In this document: piece after piece, positions 9,237-18,860 of the stretch
Position numbering within the stretch: the stretch's first letter is position 1
How the letters are laid out: each line of letters opens with the position of its first letter
Assembly (NCBI RefSeq): GCF_900102815.1
Contig: NZ_FNGF01000004.1
Coordinates: 248,001 to 312,000, forward strand
Length of the DNA stretch: 64,000 bases
From: Glycomyces sambucus
GTDB lineage: Bacteria; Actinomycetota; Actinomycetes; Mycobacteriales; Micromonosporaceae
Reading direction: 5' to 3'
Notes under the pieces: model-generated
The model's database searches: none
What the model was told of the DNA's origin: nothing
Seen by the model: only the letters and a program-made list of their open reading frames with translations
Program-made: the position numbers and the translations under genes

Positions 9237-9958
9237 GCGACGACGTCCACGCCCTCATCGGCGCCTGGGTCCTCGACGCGGTCGAGGACGACGAGCGGCG
9301 CCGCATCGAAGCCCATGTGCTGCAATGCGAGTCGTGCGCCCGCGAAGCCGCGGAGCTGCGCGAGGCGGTGGCGCGGCTCTCCGACACCGTCGTGGCCGAA
9401 CCGCCGCCCGAGCTGCGCGACCGCGTGCTCGCGGGCGCCCGCGGCACCCGCCAGGACCCGGCGGCGGCGCCGCGGCGGCCCCGGCCCGCGCGGCGCACGC
9501 GGTGGCGGCACCCGAAGCTGCGGCTCGCGATCGGCGCCGCCGCGCTCGCGGTGGTCGCGGCCTTCGCGGGCGTCTTCGCCACGTGGCAGGTCATGCGGGC
9601 CCCGGACGAGGACGGCTCGCAGATGACCGCGGTCCTGGAGGCGCCGGACGCGAACGTGGCCGTGCAGGACGCCGAGGGCGGCGGGCGCGTCACCGTCGTG
9701 TACTCCGCCGAGCTCGACCGCGCCGTGGTCGTGGTCTCCGGCCTCGCCGACATCGGCGAGGACCGGTCGTACCAGGTGTGGCTGGTCGACGCGGCGGGCC
9801 AGGTCTCGGCCGGGGTGATGGACCCGGGCGACTCCTCGGCGACGATGCTCCTGGACGGCCTCGGGGACACCGAGGTGGTCGGGTTGACGAGCGAACCCGC
9901 CGGGGGTTCGGACCAGCCGACCACGCCGATGATCGCCGACCTCGCGCTGCCGGCCTGA
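9233..9958 (+). CDS. Anti-sigma factor, RskA/zinc-binding type
   Basis: 241 residues. The cytoplasmic N-terminal anti-sigma domain carries the zinc-type motif H28-x3-C32-x2-C35 (HVLQCESC). One membrane helix follows at about 90-112 (LAIGAAALAVVAAFAGVFAT). The extracytoplasmic part, with EDRSYQVWLVDAAGQVSAG and LLDGLGDTEVVGLTSEPAGG, matches the anti-sigma-K (RskA) C-terminal domain. It holds the adjacent ECF factor inactive until regulated proteolysis or a redox/metal signal releases it. It overlaps the sigma gene by four bases. Confidence 0.93.
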   Translation: MSDDVHALIGAWVLDAVEDDERRRIEAHVLQCESCAREAAELREAVARLSDTVVAEPPPELRDRVLAGARGTRQDPAAAPRRPRPARRTRWRHPKLRLAIGAAALAVVAAFAGVFATWQVMRAPDEDGSQMTAVLEAPDANVAVQDAEGGGRVTVVYSAELDRAVVVVSGLADIGEDRSYQVWLVDAAGQVSAGVMDPGDSSATMLLDGLGDTEVVGLTSEPAGGSDQPTTPMIADLALPA

Positions 9959-9990
9959 CCGCACGCCCGCGGTGCGGGCGGGACTCGCGT

Positions 9991-9996
9991 TACGAT
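9991..9996 (+). promoter_or_regulatory. -10 box TACGAT for a leaderless transcript
   Basis: TACGAT fits the actinobacterial TANNNT -10 consensus and is separated by seven bases from the ATG at 10004, so transcription would start at or next to the initiation codon. No Shine-Dalgarno sequence precedes that ATG and no clear -35 box is seen. Confidence 0.5.
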
Positions 9997-10003
9997 GGCC
10001 CGC

Positions 10004-10834
10004 ATGTACCTCGTGTCTGGAGCCACCGGCAACGTCGGCGGCGAAGTCGTTCGGGCCCTTGCGGATCGGGGGCTCCCGGTGCGAGCCCTGGTGCGGAGCG
10101 CGGCCCGGTGGAAGCCGGTCGCGCACGTCGAGGCGGCCGAGGCCGACCTCAACGAACTCGCGACGCTCGACCCCTGGCTCGACGGCGTGGAGGCGGCGTT
10201 CCTGCTGCCCGGCTTCCCCGACATGCCCGGCCTCTACCGCAGGCTCCGGGACGCGGGCGTGCGGCGGGTCGTGCAGCTCTCCGGCAGTTCGGCCGAGAGC
10301 GGCGACGGGACCAACGCCGTGACGGCCATGATGCTGGACACCGAGGCCGCGGCCCGCGAGTCGGGGGTGCCGTGGACCGTCGTCCGGCCCAGCGGGTTCA
10401 TGTCGAACACGCTCCGCTGGCTCCCGCAGCTGCGCGAGGGCGACGTGGTGCGCGCGCCCTGGGGCGAGATCGCCGTGGCGTGCATCGACCCGGCCGACAT
10501 CGCCGCGGTCGCGGTGGCGGCCTTGACCTCCGAGGGGCACGAGGGCGCCGTCCACCGGATCTCCGGGCCCCGCGCGATGCTCCCGGCCGAGCAGATCGCC
10601 GTCCTCGCGCAGGTGCTGGACCGGCCGCTCCGCTTCGAGGGGCTGACCGCCGAGGAGACGCGCGCGGAGCTGGAGGCGACCATGCCGCAGCCGTTCGTGG
10701 ACGCCTTCCTCGACTTCTACGTCGAGGGCTCGCTGGACGAGTCCCCCGTGTTCTCCACTGTGGAGGATCTGCTCGGCCGCCCGCCGCGGACCTTCGAGCA
10801 GTGGGCCGCCGAGCACGCCGACGACTTCCGATGA
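10004..10834 (+). CDS. NAD(P)-binding NmrA/NAD-dependent epimerase-like oxidoreductase
   Basis: 276 residues from ATG 10004; ATG 9995 would add three residues. The Rossmann N-terminus MYLVSGATGNVGGEVVRAL has the GxxGxxG glycine motif. VVQLSGSSAESGDGTNAV and TVVRPSGFMSNTLRW follow the NmrA-like short-chain pattern (no SDR YxxxK), as in NAD(P)H:quinone-type or sensor proteins. ATG 10004 is preferred because family members start at this residue and a -10 box sits seven bases away. It overlaps the serine hydrolase gene (ATGA), so the two are co-transcribed. The substrate is unknown. Confidence 0.9.
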   Translation: MYLVSGATGNVGGEVVRALADRGLPVRALVRSAARWKPVAHVEAAEADLNELATLDPWLDGVEAAFLLPGFPDMPGLYRRLRDAGVRRVVQLSGSSAESGDGTNAVTAMMLDTEAAARESGVPWTVVRPSGFMSNTLRWLPQLREGDVVRAPWGEIAVACIDPADIAAVAVAALTSEGHEGAVHRISGPRAMLPAEQIAVLAQVLDRPLRFEGLTAEETRAELEATMPQPFVDAFLDFYVEGSLDESPVFSTVEDLLGRPPRTFEQWAAEHADDFR

Positions 10835-12189
10835 ACGAGGTCCGCGACCGGCTCGCCGACCTCGACCGCCTGGCGCGCAAGCACCGTGTGCCGGGCGCGG
10901 CGGTCGCGGTCGCCACCGGCGGCACGACCGCGGTGGCCGCGAGCGGGGTCGTGAACACGCGGACCGGCGTCCCGGTCACGGCCGAGTCGGTGTTCCAGAT
11001 CCAGTCGATCACGAAGGTCTGGACCGCGACGCTGGTCATGCAGCTCGTGGACGACGGCCTGGTGGCCCTCGGCGACCGGGTGCGGGACCACCTCCCGGCG
11101 TTCCGCACGGCCGACGCCGAGGCGAGCGCGCGGATCACCGTGGAGCACCTGCTCACGCACACCGGGGGTTTCGAGGGCGACCTGTGGACGCCGACGACCG
11201 CCGGTGACGACGCGTTGCAGCGGCTCGTGGAGGACGAGGTGCCGCGGCTGCCGCAGCAGGAGGCGCCGGGCGCGCGCTACTCCTATTGCAGCGCGGGGAT
11301 GGCGGTCCTCGGCAGGCTGATCGAGGTGCAGCGGGGGCGGCCGTACGCCGCGGTGCTGCGCGAGCGGCTGGCCGAACCGCTCGGGATCACCGAGATCGCG
11401 TTCGACGCCAACGACGCCCTCGCCTTCAGCACGGCGATCGGCCATGTCCCCAAGGGCGACCGCTGGGTGCCGCTACCGGTCTGGGCGACCATGCCCGAGT
11501 CGAACCCGGCCGCGGGGAACCGGCTGGCGATGTCGGTGCGGGCGCTCCTGGCCTTCGGCGCGACGCACGCCGCCGACGGCCTCGCTCCTGACAGCACGCG
11601 GGTGCTCTCGGAGGACTCGGCCCGCGCGATGCGCGAGGCCCGCGTCCCGATCCTCGCGGCCCCCTCGGCGCCCAAGGCGGTCGGCCTGGGCTGGGAGGTC
11701 CTGGGGGGCGGGCCCGTCGTGGGCCACGCGGGCGGCGCGATCGGCTTCGGCGCGATGCTCCACGTCGTCCCCGAGGCCGGGTTCGCGGTGGCGCTGGTGA
11801 CCAACGGCGGCGACGCCGCCTCGCTCGTGCGCGAACTCGTGGAACCGCTGGTCGAGGAGGTGTCGGGCGCGACCCTGACCGGCCCGGCTCCCGAGCCGGT
11901 CTCCCCGGCCGGTCTCGACCACTACACCGGCGTGTACGCCAACGGAACCCAGCGCATCGAGGTCACTGTGGACAATGACGGCCTCAAGGCCGTCATCGAC
12001 TCCACCGGCGACGCCGCGGCCATGCTCGCCCGCGCCGGACTCCCCCCGGACACCGCCGAGATCCCGCTCCGCAAAGTCGGCCCCGACCTGTTCGCCACGG
12101 GCACAGGCAGATACGCGCAGTTCCTCGACACGGCAGACGCTCCCGCCCGCTTCGTACATCTGGGCGGGCGCTCCATTCCCCGCGCCTGA
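10831..12189 (+). CDS. Beta-lactamase-fold serine hydrolase (class C/DD-peptidase-like)
   Basis: 452 residues. SxxK motif S59-I-T-K62 in FQIQSITKVWTATLV; Tyr motif in RYSYCSAGMAVLG (Y-C-S in place of Y-x-N); third-box equivalent HAG in VVGHAGGAIGFG. No signal peptide is visible, so it is probably cytoplasmic and an esterase or peptidase rather than a cell-wall beta-lactamase. The C-terminal 100 residues (LDHYTGVYANGTQRIEVTV) look like the small beta-barrel often appended to these enzymes. It is second gene of an operon with the NmrA-type oxidoreductase. Confidence 0.88.
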   Translation: MNEVRDRLADLDRLARKHRVPGAAVAVATGGTTAVAASGVVNTRTGVPVTAESVFQIQSITKVWTATLVMQLVDDGLVALGDRVRDHLPAFRTADAEASARITVEHLLTHTGGFEGDLWTPTTAGDDALQRLVEDEVPRLPQQEAPGARYSYCSAGMAVLGRLIEVQRGRPYAAVLRERLAEPLGITEIAFDANDALAFSTAIGHVPKGDRWVPLPVWATMPESNPAAGNRLAMSVRALLAFGATHAADGLAPDSTRVLSEDSARAMREARVPILAAPSAPKAVGLGWEVLGGGPVVGHAGGAIGFGAMLHVVPEAGFAVALVTNGGDAASLVRELVEPLVEEVSGATLTGPAPEPVSPAGLDHYTGVYANGTQRIEVTVDNDGLKAVIDSTGDAAAMLARAGLPPDTAEIPLRKVGPDLFATGTGRYAQFLDTADAPARFVHLGGRSIPRA

Positions 12190-12263
12190 ACCCTCCTGCC
12201 GCCGTCCCGCCGGTCCACCGCCTCGATTTCACCGCGATCGGCTGGTGGACTGGAGCACAGGAA

Positions 12264-12281: not shown

Positions 12282-12300
12282 ACGGACACAAGGAGGCAAC

Positions 12301-12390
12301 ATGCGCAGTCTCGCAAAGGCATTCGCGGCACGCGTCGTCGGCGGCAAGGTCGCCAAGCGCAGCTGGTACAGCCTCTACTACATGGAATAG
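12301..12390 (+). CDS. Candidate RiPP precursor peptide (29 aa), P450-linked, atropopeptide-like
   Basis: 29 codons, ATG 12301 to TAG 12390, with a strong AGGAGG at 12291-12296. The first 20 residues are a basic amphipathic leader (MRSLAKAFAARVV, then GGKVAKR), ending in Lys-Arg. The last nine are SWYSLYYME, with W22, Y23, Y26 and Y27. A short basic leader plus an aromatic core, immediately followed by a single P450 (GTG two bases after the stop), is the layout of known P450-crosslinked RiPPs such as atropopeptides (tryptorubin core AWYIWY) and cittilin (YIYY). Seen: the ORF, its ribosome site, core and P450. Inferred: crosslinking of the aromatic side chains and leader removal near Lys19-Arg20. 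The trailing Met-Glu is unusual. Confidence 0.72.
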   Translation: MRSLAKAFAARVVGGKVAKRSWYSLYYME

Positions 12391-12392
12391 GC

Positions 12393-13682
12393 GTGGAACC
12401 CGACGGCCGCGGTGCCGGCACGACGCGCGCGACCACCGCAGACCCTTCGCGGCGATCGCCCGTGCCGGGCCCGGCGCCGCGGCCGCTGGGCCTGCCGCCC
12501 GACGACTTCGACCGCGACCCGATCGCCAGCCTGAACCGGCTCCGCGGCGAGTACGGCGACGTCTTCGCCTTCGCCGCGGGGAACGTCCTGGTCGCCCGGC
12601 CCGCCTGGGTGCACTGGGTGCTGGCCCGCACCAACCGGGAGACCCGCGTCGACGCCCCCGAACCGCCGCCGCGGCTCCAGCGCCAGCCGCTCATCCGCGG
12701 TCGGGTCGAGCGGTGGATGGCCGCCAGGCGCACCGCGCAGTGGCACCGCCTCGGCCGCGACATCGCCGAACGCACGGCGCCGCTCATGCGCGCCCGCTTG
12801 CAGGAGTTCCTCGACACCGGCCGGCCCCTGCGGCTCGCCGACTGCGAACGGGCCGTGCTCGCCGCGGCCGACCTGGTCTTCGTGCACGACATGGGAGACG
12901 ATCTGCGCTCGCTCCTCATTCCGGCGGCGGAACTGCTCTTGGAGGAGGGCGCGGCGACCGTCATCCTGCCGCCCTGGATGTCCCTGCGGACCCGCAAGCG
13001 CCTGCGCGCCAACGACGTGTGGATCTCGGCGCTGCTCGCCCACGTCAGGACCCGCCGCGCGGCCCGGCGCCCCGGCGAGGCGCCCGCCGACATGCTCGAC
13101 CTGCTCATCGACGCCGAGGACGAGGACGGGCCGGTGTTCAGCGACCTCGAAGCGGCGCAGACGCTCTCGATCAACCTGGGCAACCTCTACGCCGTGGGCG
13201 GCAGCGGACTCGGCTGGCTCCTGACCGCCCATGCCGCGCACGACCTCGCCCGGCCCGCCGGCACCGACCGGGCGGCGTGGGTCGCGGCCGTGGTCAAGGA
13301 GACCCTGCGGGCCTACCCGGCGGTCTCGCTCACGAGCCGGACCCTGGTTGAGGAGGCGCACTTCGGCGACGTGACCGTCCCGGCCGGCACGAGCGTGTTC
13401 GTGAGTCCTCTGATGCTCCACACCGACCCGCGCTGGTGGCGGTCCGATCCGGGCCGCTTCGACCCGGCGCGGTGGCTGGCCGCCGAAGTCCACGATCCGC
13501 ACGCGTACGTGCCCTACGGCTCCGGCCCGCGGGTGTGCACCGGCGTCCACATCGCGAACGCCGTGCTCGAGAACGCCGCCGACCTGCTCGCCGACCGGAC
13601 CGTGACCGCCCGGCCCGGACCCGTGCAGCGCGAATGGAGTGCGATCACGCGGCCGCGGCGGTTCCGGGTGCGGGTGGACTGA
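12393..13682 (+). CDS. Cytochrome P450, probable RiPP-crosslinking enzyme
   Basis: 429 residues. The ExxR of helix K is E303-T-L-R in VVKETLRAYPAVSL. The region DPGRFDPARWLA is the usual meander segment. The heme loop YGSGPRVCTGVHIANAV carries the axial Cys near 382. The I-helix at about 265-275 reads YAVGGSGLGWLL and lacks the usual acid-alcohol (D/E-T) pair. About 30 N-terminal residues are disordered-looking (Pro/Arg/Thr). GTG 12393 lies two bases after the peptide stop, so the two are almost certainly co-translated and the peptide is the likely substrate. No ferredoxin or reductase is encoded nearby. Confidence 0.93.
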   Translation: MEPDGRGAGTTRATTADPSRRSPVPGPAPRPLGLPPDDFDRDPIASLNRLRGEYGDVFAFAAGNVLVARPAWVHWVLARTNRETRVDAPEPPPRLQRQPLIRGRVERWMAARRTAQWHRLGRDIAERTAPLMRARLQEFLDTGRPLRLADCERAVLAAADLVFVHDMGDDLRSLLIPAAELLLEEGAATVILPPWMSLRTRKRLRANDVWISALLAHVRTRRAARRPGEAPADMLDLLIDAEDEDGPVFSDLEAAQTLSINLGNLYAVGGSGLGWLLTAHAAHDLARPAGTDRAAWVAAVVKETLRAYPAVSLTSRTLVEEAHFGDVTVPAGTSVFVSPLMLHTDPRWWRSDPGRFDPARWLAAEVHDPHAYVPYGSGPRVCTGVHIANAVLENAADLLADRTVTARPGPVQREWSAITRPRRFRVRVD

Positions 13683-13685
13683 GGC

Positions 13686-16097
13686 TCAGGGCCGGTCCGC
13701 TCGGGCAGTGAGCGGGCCGGCCTCGGGAACGCCGCAGGCGGTGTAGCCTGCGGCGGCTTCGCGCAGGTGGTGGCGGGCCGCGTCGGTGTCGCCCAGCGCG
13801 TCGGCGAGGCCGTGGTGGGCGCGGGCGAGTTCGTAGGCGTCCTCGTGGGAGCGCGCGAGGGCGGCGGCGCGCTCGTGCTGGGCCACCGCCTCGGCGATCC
13901 GGCCGGAGGCGGCCAGGGCGCGGCCGAGGTCGTTGCGGGCGGCCCGTTCGAGCGAGGGGTCGACGAGTTTCACGGCGCAGTGCACGGCGCGGTCGAGGCG
14001 GGCGGCGGCCTCGCCGGGCCGGCCCAGGCGCAGGAGGTCCTGGCCGAGTTCGATGAGCGTGTCGGTGACGTCGGCCGTGTCCCCTTCGCCGCCATAGGCT
14101 TCGAGTGCGGCGAGGTGAACGGACGCGGCGCGGGACGGGTCGCCGAGTTCGCGGGCGAGGACGCCGCGGAAGGACTCGATGCGGACGCGGTTGTGGTCGT
14201 CGCCCGCGTCGAGCCGGGCCTCGGCGGCGTCGAGGCGGCGGCGGACCTCGTCGTGGCGGCCCAGGCGCAGCAGCGGGACGACCATGTTGGTGCGGATGAG
14301 CGCGGCGGCCGCAGTGTCCTCGACCTGCTCGGCCAGGGCCAGCGCGGCCTCGTGGACGGCGACGGACTCGGCGAAGCGCCCCGAGCGCCGGTAGAGGACG
14401 CCGATGTTGGCGAGGGTGAGGGCCGCGTCGGCGTGCTCGCCGAGTTCGCGCTTGAGCGCGACGGACCGCTCCAGGCGGTCGACCGCCTCCCTGTTGCGCC
14501 CGGCGGCGAGGAGCTGGCGGCCGGTGTCGCCGAGCGTGTACGCCTCCTTGCGGCGGTCGCCGGTGCGGCGGGCGACGGCGGAGGCGACGGCGTTGACCTC
14601 GGCGTGCGGGGCTATGTCGGAGTCGTGGACGAAGAACGCGTTGAAGGCCGTCGCGAGGTGCCACGCCTCCTCGTCGAACCCGGCCGCCGCGGCGGCGGCC
14701 ACCGCCGCGGCGAGGTTGCCGCGCTCGGTCTGGAACCACGCCAGGGCCTCGGTCTGGTCGGCGAACCCGGGGAGGGCGAGGTCGTGGAGGGCGGCGCCGT
14801 CGCGGTAGCGGCGCTTGTTCGGGTGCAGGCGGGCCGCGGCGCGGTAGGTGAAGTGCAGGTGGAGGTGCACGAGCCGCAGCAGCGCGGCGCGGCGCTCGGC
14901 GGCGGGCTCCTCGGCCTCGGCGAGGCGGGCGGCGAAGTGCCGCACCAGGTCGTGGAGGCGGTAGCGGCCGGGCGACCGGGTCTCGGCGAGGTGGACGTCG
15001 ACGAGGTCTTCGAGCATCGCGGAGGCCCGCTCCTCGCCGGTCCCGGTGAGGGCGGCCGCGGCGTGCGCGTCGGCGTCGTCGCCGGGGGCGATGCCCATGC
15101 GGCGCAGCAGGAGCCGGTGGTCGGGGTCGAGTTCGCGGGAGGAGGCGTGCAGGGCGGCGGCGACGCCGCGGTGGCCCATGTCGAGCTCGTCGAGCAGCCG
15201 GTCCTCGTCGGCCAGGCGCTCCAGCAGGTCCTCGACCCTCCACTGGGGACGGCTGCGGAGGCGGGCGGCGGCCAGGCCCATCGCCAGCGGCAGGCGCCCG
15301 CACCGCTCGGCGACCGCGACGGCCTCGGCGGCGGTGAACCGGCCGCCCGCGGCGAGGCCGAGCATCGCGACCGCCTCGCGCATCGGCGGGGGTTCGAGCG
15401 GCACCGAGTGGGTGTCGGGGAGCGCGGAGAGGTCGCGGCGGCTGGTGGCGATGACGAGGCCGTCGGGCGTGCCGGGCAGCAGGGCCTCCACCTGGGCGGC
15501 GTCCACGGCGTTGTCGAGCAGGAGCAGGACGCGGCGGCCCGCGAGCGCGCTGCGGTAGGCGGCGGCGAGCTCGTCCACGTCCTCTGGGCGGGCGCGCCCG
15601 CCCGGGTCGAGGCTGCGGACGACGCGCGTGAGCACCGAGGCGAGGCCGGGGCGCAGGCCCGGGGCGTCGCTGAACCCGTGGAGGTCCACGAAGAGCTGCC
15701 CGTCGGGGTAGCGGTCGGCGAGGACGTGGGCGGCGCGCACGGCGAGGGAGGTCTTGCCGACGCCGGCCATGCCGTGCACGGCGACGACCTCGACTCCGTC
15801 GTCGACGGCGGCGAGCAGGGAGGCCAGCGCGGCCTCGCGGCCGGCGAACCCCGCGAGCGAGCGGGGCAGTTCGCGGGGGGCGGCGGGCAGGACGGGGTCG
15901 CCTCCGGCGGCGTCGAGGCCGAGGGCCTGGACGAGGAGGCGCAGGGTGCGCGGCTGGGGCCGGGTGCGGCCCGACTCGATGTCGCGGATGGTGCGGATGC
16001 CCACGCCCGCCTTGAAGGCGAGTTCTTCTTGGGTCATCATCGCCCGCGTGCGGAGCCGCCGGAGATCGATGCGGGCCGCGGGCCCTGGGTCAGGCAT
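13686..16097 (-). CDS. XRE-NB-ARC-TPR transcriptional regulator
   Basis: 803 residues. An N-terminal XRE helix-turn-helix (MTQEELAFKAGVGIRTIRDI, about 21-60) precedes an NB-ARC ATPase with Walker A GMAGVGKT at 109-116 and Walker B-like VLLLLDNAVD. The C-terminal 400 residues hold TPR-like helical pairs (ALTLANIGVLYRRSGRFAES and similar). Such STAND regulators control specialised metabolism in actinomycetes. The gene is convergent with the P450, leaving three bases between the stops, and is the nearest regulator to the putative RiPP locus; control of that locus is only a guess from position. ATG 16097 sits seven bases from a TAGCAT box, so the mRNA is probably leaderless. Confidence 0.92.
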   Translation of the reverse strand: MPDPGPAARIDLRRLRTRAMMTQEELAFKAGVGIRTIRDIESGRTRPQPRTLRLLVQALGLDAAGGDPVLPAAPRELPRSLAGFAGREAALASLLAAVDDGVEVVAVHGMAGVGKTSLAVRAAHVLADRYPDGQLFVDLHGFSDAPGLRPGLASVLTRVVRSLDPGGRARPEDVDELAAAYRSALAGRRVLLLLDNAVDAAQVEALLPGTPDGLVIATSRRDLSALPDTHSVPLEPPPMREAVAMLGLAAGGRFTAAEAVAVAERCGRLPLAMGLAAARLRSRPQWRVEDLLERLADEDRLLDELDMGHRGVAAALHASSRELDPDHRLLLRRMGIAPGDDADAHAAAALTGTGEERASAMLEDLVDVHLAETRSPGRYRLHDLVRHFAARLAEAEEPAAERRAALLRLVHLHLHFTYRAAARLHPNKRRYRDGAALHDLALPGFADQTEALAWFQTERGNLAAAVAAAAAAGFDEEAWHLATAFNAFFVHDSDIAPHAEVNAVASAVARRTGDRRKEAYTLGDTGRQLLAAGRNREAVDRLERSVALKRELGEHADAALTLANIGVLYRRSGRFAESVAVHEAALALAEQVEDTAAAALIRTNMVVPLLRLGRHDEVRRRLDAAEARLDAGDDHNRVRIESFRGVLARELGDPSRAASVHLAALEAYGGEGDTADVTDTLIELGQDLLRLGRPGEAAARLDRAVHCAVKLVDPSLERAARNDLGRALAASGRIAEAVAQHERAAALARSHEDAYELARAHHGLADALGDTDAARHHLREAAAGYTACGVPEAGPLTARADRP

Positions 16098-16110: not shown

Positions 16111-16187
16111 GAGCAGGGTGACGATTCGGGACGCGTTCTGCAGTGCCGGGCGGGGCGGTCCCGCCGGTTTCCCGCCGGTTCGGCGCC

Positions 16188-16691
16188 TCAGCGGTCGCAC
16201 CAGCCCCGGGAGGGCGCCGTCGACAGGAACACGATGACGAGGATCGACAGGATGATCCCCGGGCAGGTGTAGGCGATGGCGACGACGTTGGGGCCGTAGG
16301 AGGTCGTGGTCTCCAGGCCCGCGCCGGTGTCGGTGGTCGAGGTGACCGGGGCGAGCGCGCCGGCGACGAACCAGGACGCGAGGGCCACCGCGAGGCCGAC
16401 GGACTCCGCCGCGATCGCGCCGGTCCGGGCGCGGGCGCTGCGGCGCCGGATGCGGACGGCGAAGAGGCCGCGGGCCACGGTCAGCGCGAGGAGGACCGCG
16501 CTGGAGACGGCGATGACCGCGCCGAGCCCGGGCTCCAGGCCGTCGTCGGCCCAGGCGGTCGTGAAGTAGCCGCTCACGGGCAGGTACACGCTCCCGCAGG
16601 CGCCGACGCCGAGCAGCACCCACAGCAGCACCACGGCCGTCGAGGTGAGGCCGGGCATGCGTGCGGGCGGGAACGGTGCGGCGTGGGACAC
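16188..16691 (-). CDS. Four-helix integral membrane protein of unknown function
   Basis: 167 residues from GTG 16691, chosen because GAGAGG precedes it by seven bases; ATG 16658 is the alternative. Four hydrophobic segments are clear: VVLLWVLLGVGACGSVYLPV, VIAVSSAVLLALTVARGLFA, ESVGLAVALASWFVAGAL and TCPGIILSILVIVFLST. A basic loop (RIRRRSARAR) lies between the second and third, suggesting it is cytoplasmic. I do not recognise the family. It lies alone, upstream of and in the same orientation as the XRE-NB-ARC gene, 90 bp away. Confidence 0.7.
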   Translation of the reverse strand: MSHAAPFPPARMPGLTSTAVVLLWVLLGVGACGSVYLPVSGYFTTAWADDGLEPGLGAVIAVSSAVLLALTVARGLFAVRIRRRSARARTGAIAAESVGLAVALASWFVAGALAPVTSTTDTGAGLETTTSYGPNVVAIAYTCPGIILSILVIVFLSTAPSRGWCDR

Positions 16692-16789
16692 GGGCGGCCT
16701 CTCGTCGGGTGCGGGTCCCCGCCATGATGCCAGCGCGGGGCCGGAACGGCGAGGCGGCGGACCGGCAGGACACCGGCGGGACCCGTGGT

Positions 16790-17654: not shown

Positions 17655-18725
17655 TCAGCGGTTCCCGAACACCTCGTTGAGGAGGCGCTGCTGGGCGCCT
17701 TGGAACGCGGCGGCGACGGACAGCTCGGCGTCGTCCACGCAGTTGAGCGCGGCCGTCAGGGTCTTGGAGCCGTCCGGGGTGCTGTACATGAGCGCGGCGT
17801 GGCCGACGGCGGCGCCGTTGTGGGAGACCACGGTCGAGCCGTCCTCTGTGGTCAGGAGGAAGACGCCCATGCCGTAGTCCATGTTCGGGATGCCGGTGGC
17901 GACCGGGGTGAGCATGGCCTCGCGCAGGTCGGGCGGCAGGAGGCCGCCGCCGGTGAGCGCGGCGATGAACGTGTGGAGGTCGCGGGTCGTGGCGATCATG
18001 TCGCCGCCCGCGCCGACCCAGGAGGGGTCCTGGCGGGTGATGTCCGCAATGGCGTCGCCGTGCCGGTAGTAGGCGCGGGCGTGCGGTTCGGGGAGGTCGG
18101 GGCCGTCCGGGATGGAGGTGTGCGACATCCCGAGCGGGTCGAGGACGAGCCGCCGCAGCTCGGCTGCGGCGCTGCGGCCGGTGGCGCGCTCGACGAGGAG
18201 GCGGGCGAGCACGTAGTTCGTGTTCGCGTAGCCCCAGCGCGCGCCGGGCTCGAACCGCGCGGGCCGGCTCAGCGCGAGCGCGACCAGGTCCTGCGGCCGG
18301 TGCCGCTCGAACCGCCGCTCCAGCCATTCGTTCCCGTTGGGGCCGTAGGGGATGGTGACGCCGAACGCCATCGTCCCGTCCTCGTGCACCTCGCCGGTGA
18401 AGTTGAACAGGCCGCTGGTCTGCCGGAGGACCATGCGGACCGTGATCCGGGCGTCGATCGCGAACTCGGGCAGGTACCCCGCGACCGGAGTGTCGAGTTC
18501 GATCCTCCCCTCGGCGACGAGCCGCAGCACCATGGCCGCCGTGAACGTCTTGGTGTTGCTGCCGATCCGCACGAAGCCGTCGACCGGCGGCAGGGCGGCC
18601 CCGCCGAGCTCGGCGACACCGGCGGCGCCGGTCCACTCGCCGTCCTGGTCGTTGACGCGCACAGCGATCCCGATGATGCCCGGCCCGACCAGCTCCTCGA
18701 TCGTCTCCTGCAAGTGGTGCGACAT
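17655..18725 (-). CDS. Beta-lactamase-fold serine hydrolase (D-alanyl-D-alanine carboxypeptidase-like)
   Basis: 356 residues from ATG 18725, chosen for GAGGAGG six bases upstream; ATG 18776 lacks this. Catalytic SxxK is S56-N-T-K59 (RIGSNTKTFTAAMVL), YxN is Y-A-N in RWGYANTNYVLARLL, and the third box is HNG in VVSHNGAAVGHAALM. The family includes the Streptomyces R61 DD-peptidase, but no signal peptide is seen here, so it probably acts in the cytoplasm on an unknown ester or amide. It is divergent from the lipoprotein gene at 18861. Confidence 0.9.
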   Translation of the reverse strand: MSHHLQETIEELVGPGIIGIAVRVNDQDGEWTGAAGVAELGGAALPPVDGFVRIGSNTKTFTAAMVLRLVAEGRIELDTPVAGYLPEFAIDARITVRMVLRQTSGLFNFTGEVHEDGTMAFGVTIPYGPNGNEWLERRFERHRPQDLVALALSRPARFEPGARWGYANTNYVLARLLVERATGRSAAAELRRLVLDPLGMSHTSIPDGPDLPEPHARAYYRHGDAIADITRQDPSWVGAGGDMIATTRDLHTFIAALTGGGLLPPDLREAMLTPVATGIPNMDYGMGVFLLTTEDGSTVVSHNGAAVGHAALMYSTPDGSKTLTAALNCVDDAELSVAAAFQGAQQRLLNEVFGNR

Positions 18726-18860
18726 GGCGGCCTCCTCAAGCTCCCTCGGCTCCCTGCCGATGCGGGAACCCTCCACCCTGCCCCTGGGTCAAGGTCAACC
18801 GTGACCTCCGGCACAGCGGCGGCGTACTACCCTGAACTCCCCCTTCGGAAAGGCGGCCCC

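Follow-up and report, generated by a model that had tools for sequence, protein, structure and literature searches.

A short peptide gene and a P450 gene recur as a two-gene cassette in Glycomyces and likely specify a crosslinked ribosomal peptide

Introduction

Ribosomal peptides crosslinked by cytochromes P450 attract interest as rigid macrocycles that can be genetically encoded, the ring being set by the spacing of the joined residues. Within a stretch of 64,000 nucleotides from Glycomyces sambucus (contig NZ_FNGF01000004.1, positions 248,001 to 312,000; hereafter the window), a 29-codon open reading frame with an aromatic C terminus directly precedes a P450 gene. The question raised by this locus is whether the two genes form a system of that kind and, if so, which residues the enzyme would join. 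The initial annotation, made from the letters of the window, had called the locus atropopeptide-like and had named W22, Y23, Y26 and Y27 as the residues joined by crosslinks. Here we compare the pair with its relatives in Glycomyces and beyond.

Results and Discussion

A short peptide gene directly precedes the P450 gene

The features of the locus are collected in Table 1. As the initial annotation had described, the short frame follows a Shine-Dalgarno site and ends two bases before the P450 gene, the start codon of which is GTG. The encoded protein matches the Pfam p450 model (E=2.1e-29) and contains both the ExxR motif and the heme Cys. Its AlphaFold model, built from 49 sequences, has a pLDDT of 84.8 and matches the P450 fold, with CYP184A1 as the best match (TM 0.75); a first model from 9 close sequences was discarded because of its pLDDT of 52.9. 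By sequence and by fold, the closest solved structures are CYP184A1, CYP3A and the like, which are not named as peptide-modifying, and no entry named as a RiPP P450 was found among the best 60 matches by sequence and the best 50 by fold, some of these entries being titled just "Cytochrome P450."

Table 1. Features of the peptide-P450 locus (positions in the window)
Feature	Positions	Strand	Basis or remark
Conserved upstream element TCCTGCCGCCGTCCCGCCGGTCCACCGCCTCG	12194-12225	+	Nine-locus alignment; three direct repeats spaced ~11 bases; shared homology begins here; promoter/operator-like
-10-like block CTGGTGGACT	12242-12251	+	CTG-T--ACT at 9/9 loci; putative function
Shine-Dalgarno AAGGAGG of the peptide gene	12290-12296	+	Sequence; 4 bases 5' of the ATG
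Precursor peptide gene, 29 codons, product MRSLAKAFAARVVGGKVAKRSWYSLYYME	12301-12390	+	
Leader Gly14-Gly15	12340-12345	+	Invariant 9/9
Core W22-YSLYY-ME	12364-12387	+	Tyr23 12367-12369, Tyr27 12379-12381, then two variable residues and stop
Cytochrome P450, 429 aa	12393-13682	+	Pfam p450, alignment, tree, AlphaFold model
I-helix segment VGGSG	13194-13208	+	Column comparison of 49 P450s; other P450s have the acid-alcohol pair (AGHET-like) there
Heme-ligand Cys382 codon, within PYGSGPRVCTG	13536-13538	+	
XRE-HTH/NB-ARC/TPR regulator	13686-16097	-	Convergent neighbour; outside the conserved pair

The peptide and the P450 occur together at nine loci

We searched 22 Glycomyces genomes with both the P450 and the peptide. 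Seven further genomes hold orthologues with 63–71% identity to the window P450, at 8 places in all, which together with the window makes nine close P450 places in 8 of the 22 genomes. A homologous peptide frame of 27–29 residues lies upstream of the P450 at all nine; two bases separate it from the P450 start at eight loci, the two overlap by 1 base at the ninth (L021), and the GGAG of the ribosome site is kept throughout. Across the same genomes, a profile made from the nine peptides recovered the same 9 places at E<=9.3e-13, and the next best match had E=0.022. Peptide and P450 are thus found exclusively together in the 22 genomes, one decayed copy (in genome G008) excepted, and their pairing is more than chance.

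Seven peptide residues are invariant at all nine loci (M1, L4, A7, G14, G15, Y23 and Y27), and every peptide ends in Tyr23-x-x-x-Tyr27-x-x-stop. The cores read WYSLYYME (window), WYAWHYWL (two genomes, L020 and L021), WYVAYYTD, WYVAYYTE, YYRLHYPE, SYPLPYPK, DYRLPYPK and NYRLPYAQ; in the last three, the two invariant Tyr are the sole aromatic residues. At position 22, five of the nine have Trp and the rest Y, S, N or D; position 25 holds L, W or A, and Tyr (3/9), His or Pro stands at position 26. Because these three positions vary, no other aromatic pair is kept in all nine, and only Y23 and Y27 survive from the four residues originally named as crosslinked. A Tyr-x-Trp arrangement, the Y-A-W of L020 and L021, occurs in two peptides. 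The basic leader ending in Lys-Arg that had been noted in the window is there, but it is not a conserved trait: residues 19-20 read KR, TR, TR, AG, TR, AG, PA, PA and PA, and Lys-Arg was rejected as a conserved processing site on that count (1/9). The invariant Gly14-Gly15 of the leader may be a hinge or a double-Gly cleavage site. After a hypothetical cut behind it, the precursor segment would be KVAKRSWYSLYYME, with a calculated [M+H]+ of 1823.915 in linear form.

At the level of codons, the signal of translation is weak. Among the five different sequences in the longer subgroup, frame 0 is better kept than the other five frames (mean BLOSUM62 2.83 versus 1.25–1.94), and pN/pS is 0.75 and 0.98 in the two subgroups, a small synonymous excess. 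Codon positions 1, 2 and 3 show 0.30, 0.30 and 0.33 differences per codon in one subgroup and 0.26, 0.18 and 0.15 in the other, so variation is not clearly concentrated at the third position. For this reason, the case for translation is drawn from the pairing, the ribosome site and the residues that never vary. The initial annotation's view of the locus as a P450-modified RiPP precursor with its P450 gains from the comparison: the conserved peptide was found upstream of every one of the nine orthologous P450s, and 12301–12390 is very probably the precursor of the adjoining enzyme.

The P450s form their own clade and lack the I-helix acid-alcohol pair

More distant kin were searched for in 397 genomes of the order, 394 of the class, 149 of one family and named contigs. 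Loci were taken from the best 30 kin matches, and 17 other P450s were placed in a tree and 23 in an I-helix table; L016–L018, L028 and L067, which are partial or truncated, are left out of the kin counts. Outside the nine, the P450s with the highest scores are 27–30% identical. A short, mostly aromatic-tailed frame stands upstream in 11 of the 14 such kin read, L096 included, and under the ribosome-site filter no candidate upstream peptide was found for the other three (L063, L065 and L015). The P450 of L096, 27% identical to that of the window and matching the profile at E=2.5e-38, groups with the Glycomyces clade in the tree (99/96). Its peptide, MSIFHSIKAKRAAASAGKYYIRMYPV, lies directly upstream and has the tail GKYYIRMYPV, with the same Y-x-x-x-Y-x-x-stop spacing. 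Most of the other kin peptides end in Y-x-W or Y-x-Y-W, preceded by a (G)GRY-like motif, as in MAKLALMGLARLVRLDRGRMGGRYPWIP from Micromonospora deserti. The set with this type of core (L013, L014, L060, L061, L062, L064, L066, L095, L126 and L127) consists of actinobacterial P450s with peptides of 26–31 residues and probably comprises several P450-RiPP families. The label is a loose one, for L064 (GRNQWPPEHFYG), from a Glycomyces genome, is grouped there though it has no Y-x-W.

The deep order of the P450 tree is weak (52/98), with long branches for L125, L128, L032 and L096. A clustering with small-molecule hydroxylases, which the initial annotation had named as counting against its reading, did not appear in the tree, but the weak deep branching and the names of the nearest solved structures temper this result.

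Columns of the I-helix were compared across 49 P450s. All 23 of the other P450s in the comparison, which are the best profile matches of one search and no random sample, have the acid-alcohol pair (E-T); it is absent from all nine Glycomyces enzymes, which read VGG[TSA]G. L096 reads QT, and 13 of 13 members of the Y-x-W group read G[VIA]P[AG][ATS], again with no acid-alcohol pair. The single tryptorubin-type and biarylitide-type P450s show no E-T in the presumed I-helix when read by eye and unaligned; three cittilin-type P450s retain it. The missing pair would suit an enzyme whose chemistry is not ordinary hydroxylation, but its loss is no rule: the cittilin-type enzymes keep the pair, so crosslinking does not depend on losing it.

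Comparison with known P450-modified peptides

The types used for comparison were recognised by their core sequences. We take L125 to be a tryptorubin-type pair, L107, L111 and L068 to be cittilin-type, and L128 to be biarylitide-type (MRYYH-type). None of these groups with the window clade, the deep tree order being weak. The cittilin core is YIYY and ends at the stop. The cittilin type thus resembles the window family in its Tyr-rich core and small leader and differs from it in the end of the peptide, which here is Y-x-x-[YHP]-Y-x-x-stop; the three cittilin-type P450s form a separate clade (100/99), with the window clade outside.

Like the P450-modified RiPPs with P450-made aryl crosslinks known as cyptides, the Glycomyces pair has a short leader-core precursor before one P450, an aromatic C-terminal core and a two-gene layout without its own protease. 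The two cyptide features that we looked for were both found, namely a conserved precursor frame beside the P450 (9/9) and conserved aromatic core residues (Tyr23 and Tyr27). Unlike them, the window family has its own leader (MRSLxKA...GGK), its own core rule (Y-x-x-x-Y-x-x-stop) and its own P450 clade.

Atropopeptides are defined by a KSLK-type leader motif together with a Trp at core position 2, the motif occurring at residues 17-20 as KSLK, RSLK, ESLK, KSRK, KPLK or PSLK (PMC11450843). None of these six variants is present in the nine Glycomyces peptides, and Trp precedes Tyr23 in just five, which takes both parts of the definition away from "atropopeptide-like." The likeness lies in the two genes, in the W-Y start of those five cores and in a possible C-terminal trimming; the peptide of L125, MKVLFAIKNAVCHQKSLKASAWYIWY, is dissimilar, and its P450, the only tryptorubin-type enzyme in the tree, sits on a very long branch (3.77) and not beside the window clade. 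We therefore rejected membership in the atropopeptides: with Trp22 in five of nine, Lys-Arg in one of nine and no KSLK leader motif, the earlier core assignment and label fail together. The trailing Met-Glu, which had been offered as a sign of novelty, is insufficient by itself, since one atropopeptide, scabrirubin, likewise has C-terminal residues trimmed from the core predicted for it (PMC11450843).

The Y-x-W and Y-x-Y-W peptides, which together with L096 are the best-scoring relatives outside the nine, resemble the window family in having a short peptide, here of 26–31 residues, next to a P450 that has no acid-alcohol pair. They differ in the leader, the last residues of which are ...[RKQ](M/L/V)(G/A/S)G, with the core following at once; this core is mostly (R)Y-x-(Y)W, and the Y-xxx-Y rule was not seen among those read. 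They are probably micitide- or pseudosporamide-like. The top NCBIfam match of the window P450 is the RiPP P450 ApyO (E=5.4e-22), a Tyr-x-Tyr crosslinker (PMC13192836), but the score of 78 bits compares with a cut-off of 525. The aminopyruvatide gene cluster holds several other metalloenzymes (PMC11002830); an ApyO-type P450 with MNIO and B12-rSAM partners was not found here, the TPR regulator being the only gene common to more than two of the nine flanks. Biarylitides are likewise minimal peptide-P450 pairs; their precursor has five residues (PMC13417212), compared with 27–29 here, and the L128 P450 is short and distant.

According to a review, one survey sorted 1057 P450-RiPP clusters into 11 categories (PMC12299652). 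Set against the named families, with the surveys Liu 2024, He 2023, Nam 2023 and Hu 2023 outside the comparison, the best reading of the cassette is a new family within the P450-modified RiPPs and not a new kind. A literature search for such systems in Glycomyces returned a single paper, which by its title concerns a Streptomyces thiopeptide, the 2023–2024 surveys in subscription journals lying outside its reach.

Proposed function and alternative explanations

Because the pair recurs as a unit at different sites in several Glycomyces, it likely makes a small crosslinked peptide, related to but unlike the known types. The proposal, which as a whole we consider likely, builds on the observed conservation, pairing, boundaries and absence of the acid-alcohol pair. 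The promoter-like element would drive the 29-residue precursor, translation of which may be coupled to that of the P450. The basic leader, MRSLxKAxxxRxxGGK, would recruit the enzyme, which would oxidize two Tyr held at the heme by one electron each, and radical coupling would then join the side chains of Tyr23 and Tyr27, i to i+4, through a C-C or C-O-C bond. A second bond, to Trp22 or Tyr26, may form in members that have one of these. Host proteases would finally cut off the leader and perhaps also the two residues behind Tyr27; removal of the leader by host proteases has been published for other two-gene members (PMC11450843). Taken by its parts, we hold with good confidence that the P450 makes an aromatic crosslink; whether Tyr23-Tyr27 is the common one is an even call, as two invariant Tyr are no proof of a mutual bond.

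The main contender places the crosslink elsewhere, between W22 and Y23 or between Y23 and residue 25 or 26, as in the tryptorubin, YxW and cittilin types, and gives Tyr27 another role. The ring spans named in the two sources consulted on this point, i+1, i+2 and i+3 (PMC11002830; PMC11450843), would suit it, as would the Y-A-W of L020 and L021. It has to contend with the variability of positions 22, 25 and 26, which leaves no other aromatic pair in all nine, and we rate it as clearly the less probable, though with some weight. That the peptide is a substrate but receives no crosslink, its Tyr being hydroxylated, nitrated or otherwise modified, seems unlikely. A crosslinking-type lineage has been reported to have switched to Tyr nitration, in RufO, which acts on a biarylitide-type pentapeptide (PMC13417212; PMC12186263), but Pfam found no nitric-oxide synthase domain in the small sample of seven neighbouring frames; for modification of a single Tyr, one would suffice, whereas two stand at fixed spacing in all nine; and the acid-alcohol pair of the other compared P450s is missing here.

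Two further explanations carry still less weight. The short frame could be a translated leader or uORF, or a small helper that binds the P450, with the enzyme acting on an unrelated small molecule; the two-base distance, the weak codon-level evidence and the names of the nearest solved P450s count in its favour. The residues kept invariant, however, are those of the C-terminal Y-xxx-Y and the GG, which coupling does not need, more distant P450s have short, mostly aromatic-tailed peptides of their own at the same place, and no other biosynthetic gene was seen travelling with the pair at the nine loci, all of which makes this explanation improbable. An atropopeptide with a longer core, already disfavoured above, we regard as very improbable: the two-gene layout and the W-Y start of five cores recall that family, and set against them are the absent leader motif, the unconserved Trp and the lack of close grouping with the sole tryptorubin-type P450, which is itself unsurely placed.

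For a Tyr23-Tyr27 crosslink, the natural series of cores beside enzymes that are 63–71% identical offers a ready test of i to i+4 Tyr-Tyr closure, and the same series probes the tolerance of Pro, His or Tyr inside the ring.

The pair and its upstream element form a unit with changing neighbours

In pairwise DNA comparisons of the nine loci, homology covers ~1.4–1.55 kb, beginning at the three-repeat element and running to roughly the end of the P450 gene. Its onset lies no more than 15 bases from the element in 32 of the 36 locus pairs; in the remaining four, it lies 98 bases inside (window and L052) or 23–36 bases before the element (L049 and L050, L050 and L056, L055 and L056). Between the window and L052, homology extends through the neighbouring regulator. 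Flanks of 5.6–10.3 kb a side were compared around the nine cassette regions at E<=1e-15. The neighbours mostly differ, and the pair lies at different chromosomal sites. A homologue of the window TPR regulator is present in L052 (61%) and L053 (34–36%), and besides it three similarities were found, each between a single pair of loci: L049 and L051 (45% over 137 aa), L051 and the window (33% over 302 aa), and L053 and L054 (39% over 175 aa). A larger gene cluster around the pair was rejected, as no flanking gene apart from the regulator is common to more than two of the nine; for the same reason, no protease or redox partner was seen travelling with the pair in these flanks.

Carriage on a plasmid or phage was also rejected at the settings used, with no plasmid match at E<=1e-25 and no relative on viral contigs by pattern scan. 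The best reading is that pair and element form a P450-RiPP cassette of two genes that is mobile and carries its own putative promoter. With promoter and pair together, changing neighbours and one decayed copy, it makes a clean case for the spread of minimal RiPP units. In that decayed copy (L028/L135; G008:C20:41965-42245, minus strand), the element is followed by just the C-terminal end of the P450, in which the position of the heme Cys is Arg. In the window, the gene at 9325–12189 (+) encodes a 954-aa protein with a serine beta-lactamase-fold hydrolase domain in its C-terminal part (residues ~515–830) and no Pfam match in its N-terminal half, and a second gene with such a domain lies at 17655–18776 (-).

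The element recurs across the genus and is enriched near TPR regulators

The consensus of the element, TCCYGCCGnnnTCCYGCCGGTnnnnYGCCTCG, has further copies in the window at 16159–16190 (+) and 16750–16781 (-). Allowing no more than 2 mismatches, we found 83 copies in 17 of the 22 Glycomyces genomes, compared with 1 for the reversed pattern. With its three direct repeats, the element looks like an activator-type promoter.

The TPR regulator stands tail-to-tail with three of the nine cassettes, in the window, G018 (62%) and G015 (a 38% homologue), and with the decayed one in G008 (73%). Two NCBIfam models match it below their cut-offs: HaaT, a model from cyclophane-RiPP clusters, at 294 bits (cut-off 1125), and that of the FxSxx-COOH TPR protein at 99 bits (cut-off 300). 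Among the matches listed, homologues at E<=1e-40 are present in all 22 Glycomyces genomes. Sixteen of the 83 elements have one of 25 close regulator homologues no more than 2 kb away, versus 0.18 expected under a simple uniform model, and 13 of these 25 homologues have an element nearby. Six of the 16 linked elements lie 61–131 bases upstream of the regulator start and point away from it, and three belong to cassettes (window, G018 and the decayed G008). That the TPR proteins bind the element is our guess.

Taken together, we put forward tentatively, as a reading more doubtful than the proposal for the pair itself, a new family defined by ring closure between Tyr(i) and Tyr(i+4), a larger span than the i+1 to i+3 found in the sources above, by a P450 without the acid-alcohol pair, and by a mobile promoter-precursor-P450 cassette whose element would be wired to a genus-wide regulon linked with STAND-type TPR regulators. 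Elsewhere in the genus, the genes behind the element, read by eye at 29 loci out of the 83 copies (at most two per genome, L137 left out), are mixed: some are lipoprotein-like, others resemble further secreted proteins, one is PadR-like, and some frames are indistinct.
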